From a virus: a stretch of 28,147 nt of DNA. Below the pieces are notes generated by a model. The model ran no database searches. It was not told the DNA's origin and saw only the letters and a program-made list of their open reading frames with translations. Of this stretch, positions 2,010 through 20,509 are shown one piece after another. The first letter of the stretch is position 1. Each line of letters starts with the position of its first letter. The DNA is taken from IMG/VR virus record IMGVR_UViG_3300004807_000090, positions 1 through 28,147 of that record. The stretch is one strand, 5' to 3'. The position numbers and the translations under genes were made by a program.

Positions 2010-5000
2010 ATGCCATCCAAAGACTGGAGCGCCTCAGCGGAGCTTAACAACATGCGCAAAGCCGGTATTACTGGCTCTAGCAACCCCGTGCGCAATCGCC
2101 TTGAAACGCAAGAGCTGCTACGCAATGTTCGTACCGGAGGATCTTTCGCTAGTGATGTTGCCAGAATGCCTACGGAAGGCCGTGAGCGACTCAATACGAT
2201 GGGTGGCAGGGTTAACATGGAGGGCGGTGTATCCCGTACTCTTGGCCGTACTGCTGCTGCCACTGGGAGTGATGCTCAGTGGGCCTGGCCCAAGCTTCAC
2301 GACCCATTCGAATACTGGCGTGAGCGTACCTGGTGGTTCAACATGGAGGACCCCGACGAACAAACACGTAAAATCCGTGACTGGACTCGCCTGCTTTACA
2401 CCACACACTACCTGGTACCAGGTCTTATTGATATCTACACGCGTTTCCCACTCCTTGACATTGAGCTCGTCCATCACGACAAGCGCATCAGTGACTTCTA
2501 CAACGAGATGTTCTTTGATGGTCTAAACTATCAGGAGTTCCTGTTTGACCTGGGCCGTGAACACTGGACCGTTGGTGAAGTGTTTGCCATGGGCAGCTGG
2601 CACGATGGTATTGGTGCCTGGGAAGATGATGAAATCATCAATCCAAATGACGTTATCGTTGCAAAGAACCGAGCGCTACGCACCTATCAGTACCATGTAA
2701 AGGTACCTCAGGAGATCAAAAAGCTTATTGAGACTCGTGACCCTTCACAGGAATATCAGATGCTCATGCAGATGTATCCAGACGTTGTTGCCTGGGCACG
2801 TCAGGACAAAGAGATCCCTGTCAGTGACGTGATCATGAAACAGATCAAGTTCAAGTGCGTTGTTGGTTCTACTGATATAATGACCCCAACTGGTCCTGTC
2901 CAGGCAAGAGACCTTGCTGTTGGCGATGAAGTGCTCGCATGGGATGAGACTACGAATAAGATTGTTCGCAGCACCGTTAGTCACCAAGGTATTAATGAAC
3001 CAGAACCAATCTATTGGATCACGACTAAGCAAGGTCGAAAGATTGGTGTTAACTCGGAGCACCCATTCCTTACTGATAATGGCTGGGTAGAAGCTGCCGA
3101 TCTTTCTATCGGAACAAATTTGTTGGTCGGCCATTCATATAATCCTGAGATGACCAGCAATGTATCGACCGATGAAGCAAGATTTTTTGGTTTAATGGTT
3201 GGTGATGGTAGCTATGGCCATAAAACGATTATTTTCCACAATGAAGACAAAGAAATACTAAATTGGATGAATGAATTCGTTGCCGGATATGGTTGCAAAC
3301 TATCGCAAGCCGGTGACCGTGAGATATCATTCGTTATTTCACAGGGTGAACAAACAAAAAATCCTAATTTAATCAAGAAATTAATCGTAGATGCTGGTAT
3401 CAAGGGGCAAACTACTTATACAAAGAGAGTCCCGTCTTGTATTTGGGATGGTGGGCCTGAAGTTTGGGGAGCTTTTCTTGCTGGTTATCTAGATACTGAT
3501 GGTCATGTTGACTCAAATGGCATGGTTGTATGGACTAGTATGAACCGTTCACTGCTTGAAGATTGTCAAACATTGTTGTCATTCCTTGGAGTAGAATCAA
3601 GAATCTATGACGTGCCTAAATATGACTATGCACCGGATTCTGGTTATGGTCACCGTCTCATTGTTGGCAAGCAAGAGGCTAAGTCTTTGCTATCTCATTA
3701 TGTGCAACCGCTTTGTTCAAGAAAGCAAGTTCCTAACACTACGCCTATTAGAAATACACGCCCATCTAAATTCCCATATGATCAAATTGTAAAAATTGAA
3801 ATGGGTATTGATGAAGAAACAATGGCCATTGGAATTGATGAGCACCATACCCACATTACTGCTGGCCTTGTAACGCACAATACTAACCCCTGGAGTGAGC
3901 ATGGTACTCCTATTCTGCTTCGTGCTTTTCGCATGCTTATGCTTGAGGAGTCTCTCAACGCTGCTCAAGATGCAATTGCTGATCGCCTATATAGCCCTCT
4001 CATACTTGCTACTCTGGGTCTTCCTGACGTAGACCAGGACGGACCATGGATCCCTGATGCTACTGAGCTCCAGAGCCTGAGAGATGACCTGAGCATGGCA
4101 ATCAACTCGGACTTCCGATTGATGACCTATCACCATGGACTACAAATTCAGAATGCCTTTGGTCGTGAGAGCATGCCACGACTGGATGCTGACTTCATGC
4201 GTGTTGAGAGCAAGATCATGCAGGTGTTCGGCATTGGCTCTGACCTGCTGCAGGGTGGCCATGGTGGTACATACGCTAGTGGTGCACTTAACCGCGAACT
4301 GATCACACAGATGCTTAGTACCTATCAGCACAAGATAGAGGGCTTTATTCGCAGCCGTATGGAGCCTGTCGCAGAGCGTCAGGGCCACTATGAGATGCGT
4401 ACAGTGAATGGTAGGACACTGCCAATCATGGAAACTGTTCTCATGGTGGATGAAGAGACCGGTGCTGAGTACATCGAAGAGCGACCCAAGCTGGCCATCC
4501 CAGAAGTGCGTTTCCGCAGCATGAACCTGCGTGATGAAACCATTGAGCGAGGCTTCCTGCAGAACCTGATGGCTGCAGGCTTTCCCATCAGTCTGGGCAC
4601 TCTTGCGGTCAACATCCCGATTGACTTTGATGACGAGCTAGAGACTCGTCGTGAAGAGAAGGTAAAGAGCGTTGTAGCTGAACAGCAGTTCAAGCGAGAG
4701 CTCTTCCAGCAGCTGTTGGTGCAACAACTACCAATCCCACCAGAATACATTCAGGAATACCAGGCCTATCTTGCAATGATGGAGAACCCAGCAATAGCTG
4801 CACAGCTAGCACCAGGTGCAATTGCTGGACTTGTTACACCACCAGCTGCTCCCAACATGACCGGCGTGCCAGCACAAAATAGTGATGCTGCACTGGGTGC
4901 TCAGCTGTACCCAATGATCAACCAGGAAGCACAGCAGCAGACCCAGACACAGCGTGGTACAGAACGCAAGCGTCCAGCTGAATCATACGATCAAAAGAAA

Positions 5001-5393
5001 ACACAGCCAAAGCCCAGCAAGAAGGGCCCCAAGAATGGGCCACAGAAAAAGACAGCTGGTGTTGATGACGAAGAGCTAACAACCAGTTTTGGTGATGGCA
5101 GCGTTATCAATGAACGTGTTGAGTACGGTGGCAGAATGAAGTTCGCAACACCTCTGGAGAGCCGTAAGCGCAGGAAGATGAAGCTGGCCAGTGGCATCAA
5201 GGTAACTCTTGATGACAGCTATGAAAAGTTTGATGAAGATCAATTTAAATCGCACCTTGCGGCGCTCATAGAAGCTAGTGAAGACCCAATGATTCCTGAG
5301 CCAACTGATCTTGATCACCATAGCGATGGCGAGGGTGGAATGAATCAACCAGCACGACGACAGATCGATCCTACTAAAGAGGAAAACATATGA
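2010..5393 (+). CDS. Portal protein precursor with in-frame intein
   Basis: The ORF encodes 1127 residues; removing the intein (residues 283-624) leaves a 785-residue protein. The portal forms the dodecameric ring at one capsid vertex through which DNA is packaged and the tail attaches. Portal-like features are the N-extein region DPFEYWRERTWWF, the stretch LVPGLIDIYTRFPLLDIEL, and the C-extein motif TNPWSEHGTPILLRAFRM right after the splice junction. The C-terminal tail is Gln/Pro-rich and then strongly basic (about residues 980-1020), followed by an acidic end. The start has SD AAGGA merged with the preceding stop (TAAGGAATAATTA-ATG). The stop overlaps the next gene as ATGA. Position before the protease and capsid genes agrees with the assignment. 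The splice junction falls in the most conserved-looking motif of the protein. Confidence 0.88.
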   Translation: MPSKDWSASAELNNMRKAGITGSSNPVRNRLETQELLRNVRTGGSFASDVARMPTEGRERLNTMGGRVNMEGGVSRTLGRTAAATGSDAQWAWPKLHDPFEYWRERTWWFNMEDPDEQTRKIRDWTRLLYTTHYLVPGLIDIYTRFPLLDIELVHHDKRISDFYNEMFFDGLNYQEFLFDLGREHWTVGEVFAMGSWHDGIGAWEDDEIINPNDVIVAKNRALRTYQYHVKVPQEIKKLIETRDPSQEYQMLMQMYPDVVAWARQDKEIPVSDVIMKQIKFKCVVGSTDIMTPTGPVQARDLAVGDEVLAWDETTNKIVRSTVSHQGINEPEPIYWITTKQGRKIGVNSEHPFLTDNGWVEAADLSIGTNLLVGHSYNPEMTSNVSTDEARFFGLMVGDGSYGHKTIIFHNEDKEILNWMNEFVAGYGCKLSQAGDREISFVISQGEQTKNPNLIKKLIVDAGIKGQTTYTKRVPSCIWDGGPEVWGAFLAGYLDTDGHVDSNGMVVWTSMNRSLLEDCQTLLSFLGVESRIYDVPKYDYAPDSGYGHRLIVGKQEAKSLLSHYVQPLCSRKQVPNTTPIRNTRPSKFPYDQIVKIEMGIDEETMAIGIDEHHTHITAGLVTHNTNPWSEHGTPILLRAFRMLMLEESLNAAQDAIADRLYSPLILATLGLPDVDQDGPWIPDATELQSLRDDLSMAINSDFRLMTYHHGLQIQNAFGRESMPRLDADFMRVESKIMQVFGIGSDLLQGGHGGTYASGALNRELITQMLSTYQHKIEGFIRSRMEPVAERQGHYEMRTVNGRTLPIMETVLMVDEETGAEYIEERPKLAIPEVRFRSMNLRDETIERGFLQNLMAAGFPISLGTLAVNIPIDFDDELETRREEKVKSVVAEQQFKRELFQQLLVQQLPIPPEYIQEYQAYLAMMENPAIAAQLAPGAIAGLVTPPAAPNMTGVPAQNSDAALGAQLYPMINQEAQQQTQTQRGTERKRPAESYDQKKTQPKPSKKGPKNGPQKKTAGVDDEELTTSFGDGSVINERVEYGGRMKFATPLESRKRRKMKLASGIKVTLDDSYEKFDEDQFKSHLAALIEASEDPMIPEPTDLDHHSDGEGGMNQPARRQIDPTKEENI
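2856..3881 (+). mobile_element. Intein with LAGLIDADG homing endonuclease, inside portal gene
   Basis: This 342-residue in-frame insertion has the complete set of class 1 intein features. Block A starts with Cys1 (CVVGSTDIMTPTG, portal residue 283), followed by ARDLAVGDEVLAW. Block B is the NSEHPFL region with His351. Two endonuclease motifs follow: FFGLMVGDGSYG (392-403) and WGAFLAGYLDTDG (486-498), each with its acidic residue. Block F is DEHHTHITAGL and block G is VTHN, ending at Asn624. The +1 residue of the C-extein is Thr625. All expected splicing residues (Cys1, block B His, penultimate His, terminal Asn, +1 Thr) are present, so splicing and homing should be functional. Codons look more AT-rich than in the flanking extein, consistent with independent mobility. 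Confidence 0.95.
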
Positions 5394-17407: not shown

Positions 17408-18304
17408 ATGGCATCTCGTTATCGCGGTAATTTTCTATACGGTACGCTTAGTGGTTTCAACACCACTCAGACTACATTCACTGGCACTGGCTTCCCCAGC
17501 CAGCTGACCACTGGAACCTATCTGCCTGTTGTTATTAATCCTGGTTATAACGGTGTTACTGCTAGTGGCGAGATCATTTATGTAACCAACGTCAGCACCA
17601 CTGGTACAGTAAACGTTATTACAATCAGCGGTGGCAGAGGCCGCGAAGGAACCACTGCTACCAGCGGCAGCGCAGGAACGCAATGGGTCGCTGGTCCACT
17701 ATCCAGTGACTTTGGCATCAGCAACCAGATCGCCAATGGTGATTTCCCCACTCCAGCATCTGGTCAGTTATTGGTTGGTACTAGCGCCAGTGGTGCAGCA
17801 TTCACCAACACTATCAGTGGAATTACAATAAGTGGCAGTACTTTTGCTGCTAACAACTCAATCGTTGGTGGAGCTGATGGTCAGATACTAGCGATAAGTG
17901 GCAGTAATATAGTTCCTTTATCAATAACTACATCTGGTGCGTATGGTAACGGTCCAGTTTATAACAATAATGCTGGAACAAATAGCAATGCTATCGTGAC
18001 TATAACAATGTCAGGACATCTAACCTATCAAGTATGGGGTAGAGTAGCTGTGTTCGCTGCTGCATCCGGTGGAGTAGCTACTATAGCTTTACAGGCTGGT
18101 GGAATAACATTTAGCACATCTTATCCGAGTATAATACAAGCAACTACTTACCAGACCGCCAACGAATACAGCCAAATGGCTACTTATATAGCTAGTTCTA
18201 GAAATCCAGTATTGTTTAGCTTTCTTATAAGCAATACACCTGGTCAACCTGCTACCAATATAGGGTCAGCATATGCAGTTCTACAAGTGACTGGCATAGG
18301 CTGA
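17408..18304 (+). CDS. Tail fibre or adhesin-like protein
   Basis: The 298-residue product has an N-terminal module (residues 1-100: RYRGNFLYGTLSGFNTTQTT, GFPSQLTTGTYLPVVINPG, GGRGREGT, TQWVAGPLSSDFG) similar in style to other modules in this window. A linker follows (NGDFPTPASGQLLVGTSASG), and then a C-terminal beta domain (about 160-298) with ATIALQAGGITFSTSYPSII and a final YAVLQVTGIG. The C-terminal part has visibly more AT-rich codons (many ATA, AAT, GTA) than the N-terminal part. This layout fits a fibre with an exchangeable tip. The stop overlaps the next gene as TGATG. Confidence 0.7.
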   Translation: MASRYRGNFLYGTLSGFNTTQTTFTGTGFPSQLTTGTYLPVVINPGYNGVTASGEIIYVTNVSTTGTVNVITISGGRGREGTTATSGSAGTQWVAGPLSSDFGISNQIANGDFPTPASGQLLVGTSASGAAFTNTISGITISGSTFAANNSIVGGADGQILAISGSNIVPLSITTSGAYGNGPVYNNNAGTNSNAIVTITMSGHLTYQVWGRVAVFAAASGGVATIALQAGGITFSTSYPSIIQATTYQTANEYSQMATYIASSRNPVLFSFLISNTPGQPATNIGSAYAVLQVTGIG

Positions 18305-19194
18305 TGAGAGTACGTCCGTTCCCACAGTATGCAGTAGAACCCGTTGGTATAATGACCTATTCTAACGGGGTTCTAACTGACCCTGATCTTATCACGGTGA
18401 GCGGTAATACTTTTCCTGATGTAAGTCTGAGCATAACCAGCACTGACGGTAGTCTGACAATAGTTCCCAGTGGCACATACGCTACTCAAGAATCTACTGG
18501 GACCTTCCAGTATATGTTGGACAGCTCACAGACTGCTATCCAGGGCAACTATAACGTCAACTGGCAATACACAGTGAATGGCAGTGACAGGCAGTACACT
18601 GATCAACTGGTCATAACAGATCAGATGCCATACTGGAGCAATCTGAGTTATGATGAGCGTCAGCTGGCAGCAGGAATAGTACACCGACTGGACAAAAGTT
18701 TTGACAGCACCAGTGGTGGCCCTTACCTGCAGGAGATGCAGCAGAGTGGTTTCTTGATGTACGAAGAAGTTGCCATGGTAATGAGCACAGAAGCCATTGA
18801 CTATATCAATTTTGAGTTTCAACCAGTATTCAATCCAGCCTATGAGATAGGTGCTAATGCTGCGGTGATCTTCCCCAGTAACTGGTACGGCGTTCTGGCC
18901 AGCCAGACCTATGCTCACTTTCTGAAACACATCGCTCGTAACTACATCGAGCAGCCCACACCCAACGGTATGAATGCTGCCTGGATGGATCGTCGTGACT
19001 ACTACCAACGCTGGTGGCAGCTATATCTGTTCGACAAGGAAATCGCTGACAAGCAGCTGCGTCAGATGAAGCGTAGCTTCATGGTAGGAAGCAAGCGAAG
19101 CCTGCTGGTTGCTGGTGGTCTTATCCCACGAATGTTTATCAATCCAGCAAGGCCGCATTTTCAGTACGCTTCAGCCAACCTTGGAGGAGTTTAA
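18304..19194 (+). CDS. Head-tail connector (adaptor) protein
   Basis: The 296-residue product combines an N-terminal beta domain (residues 1-105, with GTFQYMLDSSQTAIQGNYNV) and a helical domain (from about 110: LSYDERQLAAGIVHRLDKSF, ... YEIGANAAVIFPSNWYGVLA, ... MDRRDYYQRWWQLYLFDKEI). The helical part and the position upstream of other neck genes suggest an adaptor linking portal to neck. It is translationally coupled to the previous gene. The last codons (SANLGGV-stop) contain GGAGGAG, the ribosome site of the following homing gene, and are echoed at that gene's end. The function is inferred from context and style. Confidence 0.6.
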   Translation: MRVRPFPQYAVEPVGIMTYSNGVLTDPDLITVSGNTFPDVSLSITSTDGSLTIVPSGTYATQESTGTFQYMLDSSQTAIQGNYNVNWQYTVNGSDRQYTDQLVITDQMPYWSNLSYDERQLAAGIVHRLDKSFDSTSGGPYLQEMQQSGFLMYEEVAMVMSTEAIDYINFEFQPVFNPAYEIGANAAVIFPSNWYGVLASQTYAHFLKHIARNYIEQPTPNGMNAAWMDRRDYYQRWWQLYLFDKEIADKQLRQMKRSFMVGSKRSLLVAGGLIPRMFINPARPHFQYASANLGGV

Positions 19195-19195
19195 T

Positions 19196-19822
19196 ATGCC
19201 AGTTACTCTCCAATATGTGTGCCGTGTTTGTAAAGAAAAAAAAGAACAGATTAAAACTCGTGGTGGTCCAGACCGTAAAACATGCCCAGGATGCCAGGAC
19301 CGTGAAGTTTTATGCGGTTGTGGTTGTGGTGAAACTGTTAGAACAAATAAGTATCGCCAAAATCGTTTCGTTGCAGGGCATTATATCCGCACAGTTACGT
19401 TTGAAGAACAGCGTGCACGCAACCTTAAGCGCCTAGCAAAGCATAAATATGATTATAGTTTTCGCAAGAAGATGTCTGAAAAGAATGTTCGCCTTCATAA
19501 GGAAGGTAAGTTTCTTAATGTCTATGGCTCGAACAACAAATCTTCTAAAGTAGAGCTTTCTCTAAAGCCGGTATTAGAACCACTTGGCTACGTTAGCACA
19601 CAGGATAAACGTTACTTTATTGGTAACCCTAAAGTTGGCGTACATATTCCCGATTATGTTAAACGTGACACCCGTGAGATTGTAGAAGTTTGGGGAACCT
19701 ACTGGCATCGCGGCGAGAACCCGCAAGATCTTATTGATTGGTATGCAGAGCAGGGTTGGTCCGCCCGCGTGGTTTGGGAAAATGAAGTCGCTGAGTTCGC
19801 AGCTAACATGGGTGGCGTATAA
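19196..19822 (+). CDS. Vsr-like free-standing homing endonuclease
   Basis: The 208-residue product starts at ATG 19196, with GGAGGAG 6 bases upstream. The N-terminal half has two Cys-rich motifs, CRVCKEK...CPGC (Cys 9, 12, 30, 33) and CGCGCGE...RFVAGH (Cys 40, 42, 44 and His62), likely DNA-binding zinc sites. The C-terminal half resembles Vsr/EDxHD nucleases: SKVELSLKPVL (Glu120), HIPDYV (Asp153), EIVEVWGTYWHRGEN (Glu164, His171) and GWSARVVWENEV. Codon use differs from the neighbours. It separates two connector genes that would otherwise be adjacent, so it is a mobile insertion. Its last residues AANMGGV mimic the end of the upstream gene. Confidence 0.8.
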   Translation: MPVTLQYVCRVCKEKKEQIKTRGGPDRKTCPGCQDREVLCGCGCGETVRTNKYRQNRFVAGHYIRTVTFEEQRARNLKRLAKHKYDYSFRKKMSEKNVRLHKEGKFLNVYGSNNKSSKVELSLKPVLEPLGYVSTQDKRYFIGNPKVGVHIPDYVKRDTREIVEVWGTYWHRGENPQDLIDWYAEQGWSARVVWENEVAEFAANMGGV

Positions 19823-19825
19823 ACA

Positions 19826-20509
19826 ATGTCTGGTATTGACCCATCTCCACTGCCACCAGTGCAGCAGGGAGATCTTTACTACCAGAAAGAAAGCCCTTTG
19901 CTTGTAGTAAAGCAAAGAGATATCTATGCTGAGATTAATCAGCAGCGCTTTCATGACGAGACTCTGCAGTGGTTCGGTGAACAGATTATTGTAAGACAGC
20001 TCTGGCGTGCAGAAGATGCTGCGCTGGGTCTGGTTGGCTACTGTCAGCAGTGCCAGGACAGTGTTGATCCTACCAATCCCAATGCTTCTGTACAGTCTCG
20101 TGTGAGCAATGTTTATAAGCAGTCAGGCAATAGCTTTTGCCCGAACTGCTATGGCACCACATTCAATGGTGGTTTCAAAACAACCTGCTACCACCTGTAC
20201 ACACTGGCTGCGGATACTCCACAGATCCGCGCCAACATCAGCACCGGTCAGTTCTGGCGAGACAATCCAACTGTTCAGATGTCATGGTATCCAGAGATCC
20301 GGGTTGGCGATCTGCTGGTCAGAGTGCTCTCCTGGGATGGTGACACACCAACCGCGCTGGGTGACCGTTTTGAAGTGAGCTCAGTTAACGTTCAAACTGT
20401 CAGGACTGGTCCAGGGATCAGCTATGACACAACAAAAATAGTCAATCAGTTCACTACGCTTTACAATCTGCCAACCACACACCCATACTATAACGTGCCG
20501 ATAATATGA
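19826..20509 (+). CDS. Neck/connector protein with Cys4 zinc motif
   Basis: The 227-residue product starts 3 bases after the homing gene; its SD is weak (GGTGG within that gene's end). It holds a four-Cys zinc motif, CQQC (Cys73, 76) and CPNC (Cys105, 108), inserted in an otherwise beta-like protein (QIRANISTGQFWRDN, VRVLSWDGDTPTALGDRFEV). The stop overlaps the next gene as ATGA. Size and location between adaptor and tail terminator fit a head-closure or neck protein. The assignment is inferred from order. Confidence 0.6.
   Translation: MSGIDPSPLPPVQQGDLYYQKESPLLVVKQRDIYAEINQQRFHDETLQWFGEQIIVRQLWRAEDAALGLVGYCQQCQDSVDPTNPNASVQSRVSNVYKQSGNSFCPNCYGTTFNGGFKTTCYHLYTLAADTPQIRANISTGQFWRDNPTVQMSWYPEIRVGDLLVRVLSWDGDTPTALGDRFEVSSVNVQTVRTGPGISYDTTKIVNQFTTLYNLPTTHPYYNVPII

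Follow-up and report, generated by a model that had tools for sequence, protein, structure and literature searches.

Free-standing homing genes are usually pictured as lying in intergenic space, or else as sparing coding sequence through introns or inteins. The Seg and Mob genes of T4-like phages are intron-less, free-standing nuclease genes found between conserved phage genes, where they are sporadic and mobile, and the intergenically encoded T4 enzymes cleave at distances of hundreds to thousands of bases (PMC2988022). In fungal mitochondria, mobile ORF endonuclease elements have been described for atp6 of Allomyces macrogynus, the first such case, and for atp6, atp9, cox2 and nad3 of Glomus sp. 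(PMC3630166). The arrangement at Glomus sp. atp6 comprises a substitute C-terminus, an endonuclease ORF and the displaced native C-terminus; one C-terminus is 91% identical in DNA to that of a relative, while the two copies are only 63.5% identical to each other (PMC3630166). Prophage e14, found in icd of Escherichia coli, restores the C-terminus over 54 residues, the new version differing by 12 base changes and two conservative substitutions (PMC11148124). A literature search of open-licence papers returned no phage example of gene-end substitution.

The locus described here belongs to a family of uncultivated phages and lies in the window, i.e., the whole 28,147-nucleotide stretch of viral DNA that was analysed (IMG/VR record IMGVR_UViG_3300004807_000090). 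Comparison with uninterrupted relatives showed a connector gene with a recoded substitute tail, the original tail being displaced to the 3' end of the putative nuclease gene that follows. We consider it likely (probability roughly 0.85) that the 3' end of the connector gene houses a free-standing, Vsr-like homing endonuclease gene; the unit would consist of the recoded tail with its stop and an ORF that brings no stop codon. The features concerned are listed below.

18304..19194, + strand: connector (the target gene), a head-tail connector-like structural protein of 296 aa, phrog_2791 (PHROG E = 4.8e-46)
19138..19194, + strand: substitute (recoded) connector tail, ~18 codons and stop; left boundary placed at the abrupt break seen between L044 and L020 (in the window lineage the boundary is less sharp)
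19183..19189, + strand: GGAGGAG, Shine-Dalgarno-like for the nuclease, inside the substitute tail (read from the sequence)
19196..19822, + strand: putative homing endonuclease of 208 aa, with a Cys-rich, zinc-ribbon-like N-terminus and a Vsr/EDxHD-like C-terminal domain
19799..19822, + strand: displaced native connector tail AANMGGV and stop, fused in frame to the nuclease; matches the empty sites of L003 and L006
19810..19815, + strand: GGGTGG, resembling a ribosome-binding site, native to the next gene and kept within the displaced tail; same bases in L003, L006 and others
19826..20509, + strand: next structural gene, phrog_2806

A homologue of the connector is the ‘structural protein’ gp107 of Rhodococcus phage E3. 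In the cultured actinobacteriophages E3, McWolfish, Phrappuccino and SCentae the connector homologue overlaps the gene directly behind it by one or four bases, and in many nuclease-free relatives of the window the phrog_2806 gene starts 1–5 bases past the connector stop. In the window it is the nuclease start codon that lies one base past the connector stop. The window connector terminates in ...FQYASANLGGV and the nuclease in ...VAEFAANMGGV, the respective 3' ends being TCA GCC AAC CTT GGA GGA GTT TAA (19171-19194) and GCA GCT AAC ATG GGT GGC GTA TAA (19799-19822). SANLGGV and AANMGGV are identical at 5/7 residues; only one of the five conserved codons is unchanged, the other four differing at the third position. 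This is the best pair among the C-terminal 7-mers of the 28 window genes (next best 3/7), and random 6-mer pairs drawn from the same residues reach an agreement of at least 5/6 about 1.5e-5 of the time. Part of the likeness consists of Shine-Dalgarno-like sequence, with GGAGGAG before the nuclease ATG and GGGTGGCG before the next gene. The initial annotation had given the end peptides of both genes with their coordinates, which were confirmed as they stood, and had described a match at the protein level, with differences mainly at third positions and little probability of chance agreement, all of which is borne out by these counts.

Scanning IMG/VR with the connector returned 46 loci with 31 distinct connector sequences, 25 of the latter without the nuclease. 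The site is conserved and the nuclease sporadic within it, occurring on nine contigs among the 46 connector loci. In the close relative L003, which is nuclease-free and has a connector 98% identical in protein, the junction is uninterrupted and reads ...AACATGGGTGGCGTATAA-AAA-ATGTCTGGT, or in longer form ...GCCAACATGGGTGGCGTATAA-AAA-ATGTCTGGTATTGAC. The window nuclease ends ...GCTAACATGGGTGGCGTATAA-ACA-ATGTCTGGTATTGAC and the window connector ...GCCAACCTTGGAGGAGTTTAA-T-ATG. The L003 junction matches the nuclease tail at 18/18 bases, together with the start of the next gene, and does not match the window connector tail; the copy that ends the nuclease gene is therefore the native tail. A 37-base query spanning the junction of the nuclease tail and the next gene matched L003 at 32/37 and L006 at 33/37, exactly at the connector 3' ends, while the next best places reached 21–23. 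With the best nuclease-free connector for each of the four nuclease lineages as reference, the downstream copy matched the empty site at more of 24 bases than the upstream copy did in every case (22 versus 17, 21 versus 20, 23 versus 21 and 22 versus 19), the margin for L018 being one base only. The downstream copy also tracks the phage lineage: the window group shares TAA plus spacer with L003 and L006, and the other nuclease lineages have TAGTGTG, like L015, L020 and L026.

The initial annotation had also proposed that a replacement tail lies upstream and the original tail downstream, fused to the endonuclease. Comparative sequence supports this model, given that uninterrupted 3' ends fit the nuclease-end copy better than the connector-end copy in four of four lineages and that paralogues at other sites end KEND, EMSN or NNHG, not ANMGGV. 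Its comparison with fungal mitochondrial atp6 holds as well, the anatomy having the same three parts (PMC3630166): a substitute C-terminus on the host gene, an endonuclease ORF and a displaced native C-terminus. In the fungal elements the native copy resembles the element-free relative, and the divergence of the inserted copy is strong at the DNA level without extending to the protein (PMC3630166); in the phage connector it is likewise the native copy, and not the substitute, that matches the element-free relative in DNA. The fungal elements differ in being mitochondrial and in having longer tails, and the Glomus atp6 enzyme is of the LAGLIDADG type, whereas here the element resides in a phage genome and has Vsr-like motifs. 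A further difference is that the native tail in the phage case forms the in-frame C-terminus of the enzyme and keeps the start signal of the next gene. Prophage e14 is comparable in its insertion near the 3' end of a gene and in the retention of the displaced segment on the far side (PMC11148124), but it is a large prophage that relies on integrase-mediated site-specific recombination rather than on endonuclease homing. Unlike the T4 Seg and Mob genes, the connector-site nuclease lies within the last codons of its target gene and comes with a substitute end. Beside intergenic placement and reliance on introns or inteins, a substitute gene end brought by the nuclease would represent a third way in phages.

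The extent of the recoding was assessed codon by codon. Between L044 and L020, connector differences are diffuse up to a run of 32 identical codons, after which 15 of the last 18 codons are changed, 14 of them synonymously and one as an Ala-Ser exchange; the stop, the nuclease and, at its end, the native GCCGTAAACATGGGTGGAGT then follow. This tail excess has p = 2e-5, and none of 300 nuclease-free pairs was as low (best control 2e-4). Between the window and L003, changes affect 13/18 tail codons versus 16/52 preceding codons (p = 0.0026), a value reached by 11 of the 300 nuclease-free pairs, the best of which are very diverged pairs; taken alone, the apparent excess in the window lineage is moderate. 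At codons -13/-12, CCTCAC is present in 21/25 nuclease-free connectors versus 0/4 nuclease lineages (Fisher p = 0.003, with relatedness among sequences ignored), the latter having CCGCAT, CCGCAC, CCGCAT and CCACAT. The window connector ends NLGG, while the position of the Leu is occupied by M or A in each of the 25 distinct nuclease-free connectors. This Leu at -4 occurs in two nuclease-bearing groups only, and a degenerate scan for NLGG connector tails gave five contigs, all with the nuclease and none without it. Together with GGAGG, Leu -4 also forms a good Shine-Dalgarno sequence for the nuclease, and part of the recoding may therefore serve translation rather than immunity.

Set against uninterrupted genomes, the sequence shows up to about the last 18 native codons replaced by a mostly synonymous tail that leaves the connector intact. 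The endonuclease ORF continues in frame through the last seven native codons to the native stop, so that the next gene retains its native ribosome-binding sequence and its start. The comparisons support an invasion of coding sequence that, by way of a substitute gene end, would not break it. We infer site-specific cutting, recoding as immunity and a tail carried with the element: the recognition or cut site would lie at about codons -17 to -8 of nuclease-free connectors, a stretch in which CCTCAC is frequent in these connectors and missing from nuclease-bearing ones; once the enzyme had cut there, a nuclease-bearing genome would serve for repair and the unit would be copied into the connector, and the recoding would remove the cut site. 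The model predicts the cut site to within ~30 bases, and immunity through synonymous recoding.

That both copies encode nearly the same peptide would also be expected of a tandem duplication, in which insertion of the nuclease doubled the terminal connector codons and drift then separated the copies, the element supplying no tail; in L018, moreover, the upstream tail is not unusually diverged from that of L045, its nearest nuclease-free relative. However, drift should spread along the gene, and the change in L044 is abrupt. It is also the upstream copy, the one still under selection, that is odd, while the downstream copy fits the empty sites, making a duplication of this kind distinctly unlikely. 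Convergence would require that both ends need a Shine-Dalgarno sequence for the following ORF and that GGxGGxGT happens to read GGV, and purine-rich, ribosome-binding-like bases are indeed present at both ends. It is highly improbable nonetheless, since the homology passes beyond GGV: AAC ATG GGT GGC GTA TAA and the start of the next gene equal the empty junction, and the empty junction is matched likewise in three other nuclease lineages. As a sole cause, Shine-Dalgarno convergence is excluded by the difference between the empty-site matches of the 37-base query and its next best places.

The nuclease could alternatively be a resident of an accessory-gene slot between the connector and the next gene, swapped by ordinary recombination in the flanks and not by homing. 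HEG-like genes often mark exchange boundaries (PMC10448857), and unrelated small ORFs fill the same slot in L005, L017, L023, L028 and L045; yet these ORFs are without a copy of the connector tail at their ends, and paralogues of the nuclease show gene-end capture again at other sites. We therefore regard exchange through such a slot as unlikely and retain the reading of a homing gene with a substitute tail. Several of the slot ORFs start [MV][DNS]W..RYA.

Seven diverse members of the nuclease group have invariant S..E, PD, E, G.Y.H-R and W residues; E120, D153, E164 and H171 are invariant over all seven, and the motif's final Asp is not clearly conserved. The conserved pattern E...PD...E..G.Y.HR resembles the Vsr core used by EDxHD homing enzymes (EDxHD/Vsr-like homing endonucleases, I-Bth0305I), a likeness by motif, with profile matches that are weak and below cut-offs (Vsr E = 0.13, DUF559 E = 0.13, phrog_13076 ‘endonuclease’ E = 0.008). 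The nuclease thus resembles Vsr by motif only, and family membership is not claimed. An AlphaFold model built on a 5-row alignment had a pLDDT of 43 and was unusable. PDB sequence searches with the nuclease gave no relevant match, a Pfam search of the ORF gave no match to LAGLIDADG or GIY-YIG, no relative turned up in two scans of bacterial and archaeal genomes, and tblastn of the nuclease against phage records gave nothing at E ≤ 1e-5. Elsewhere in the window, a large gene (2010-5393) contains a LAGLIDADG intein at residues ~283-624 (PF14528 E = 5e-15, Intein_splicing E = 6e-8).

The nine nuclease-bearing contigs fall into four diverged lineages at the same site: the window-like lineage, L018/L040, L024/L025/L027 and L044, the last three having nucleases 91%, 73% and ~55% identical in protein to that of the window. 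All four have nucleases ending FA[A/V]NMGGV, after which come the native stop and the next gene's start. DNA identity between the window and L018 is 70% in the connector, 79% in the nuclease and 63% in the next gene, while between L018 and L044 it is 83% in the connector and 63% in the nuclease. Because these pairwise identities disagree, the history of the nuclease differs from that of its flanks, and horizontal movement of the nuclease is indicated. The window and L018 tails share AACCTTGGAGG (the last 4–5 codons); outside it, their similarity does not exceed that of the remaining connector sequence, so tail and nuclease are not clearly travelling as one long block. The N-terminal Cys-rich region of the nuclease is duplicated in L024/L025/L027. 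In the nuclease lineage at L051:4992-5849 this region is duplicated in tandem, which recalls the zinc-finger repeats described in T5orf172 homing enzymes (PMC10448857).

Searches of the same phage records yielded paralogues at other sites. In L081 (1222-1938), and also in L082, the nuclease follows a sigma-70 region-4-like gene. The sigma-like gene of L081 ends CAT GAA AAT GAT TAA (HEND) and the nuclease AAA GAA AAT GAC TAG (KEND), and the sigma-like gene in most nuclease-free relatives ends GAG AA[TC] GAC TRR. In L093 the native AATGACTAG and the next gene's start (ATGACTAGTCCAGAAGA) overlap, and precisely this overlap recurs at the end of the L081 nuclease, where the native GAAAATGACTAG junction is retained together with the start that overlaps it. 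Recoding of the upstream sigma-like tail (20 codons) is only suggestive when set against the nearest relatives (p 0.14 versus L093 and 0.76 versus L094), and the case therefore rests on the native GAAAATGACTAG junction.

What appears to be a mirror image is found in L135, where a nuclease ORF (2545-3396) precedes a glycosyltransferase gene (3389-4141; PF04724). The nuclease begins MEEVIMTKKVVDIVLYN, like the native glycosyltransferase start in the nuclease-free L145 (MEEVKRQVVDIVLFN), and L135 and L145 have the same ATGGAAGAAGTAA overlap with the stop of the upstream gene. In L135 the native MEEV...VVDIVLYN is on the nuclease and the glycosyltransferase has a different version of the start, MARRICDIILYN; the native 5' end would thus have passed to the nuclease and the gene would have received a substitute N-terminus. 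At a third paralogue site, in the tRNA region of L080, the upstream neighbour is variable.

Because of the connector 3' end in four lineages, the sigma-like 3' end and the glycosyltransferase 5' end, gene-end substitution may be a general route by which this family of phage homing endonucleases enters compact, overlapping junctions, a generalisation to which we give even odds. The ORF would be fused to the native end (3', or 5' in the mirrored form), the stop, ribosome-binding and start signals of the neighbour would stay intact, and the target would receive a recoded end, presumably one that resists cutting. Not every relative has the trait, since a 36%-identical nuclease that follows the connector in L132–L134 ends ISAGKL, without the native tail, and most remote relatives are without a copy of a neighbour's end, no obvious one being seen in the Vsr-like L170–L176 and L178–L180. 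A nuclease ORF that ends in its neighbour's tail would provide a simple comparative signature for finding more such elements, and it carries a warning for annotation, the terminal residues of these ORFs being part of a different gene. In L177, from an unrelated phage, a remote Vsr-like nuclease ends FSDIG-stop like the upstream ORF, in different codons (1742-1818 and 2684-2860), and the gene there may have been split by insertion of the nuclease.
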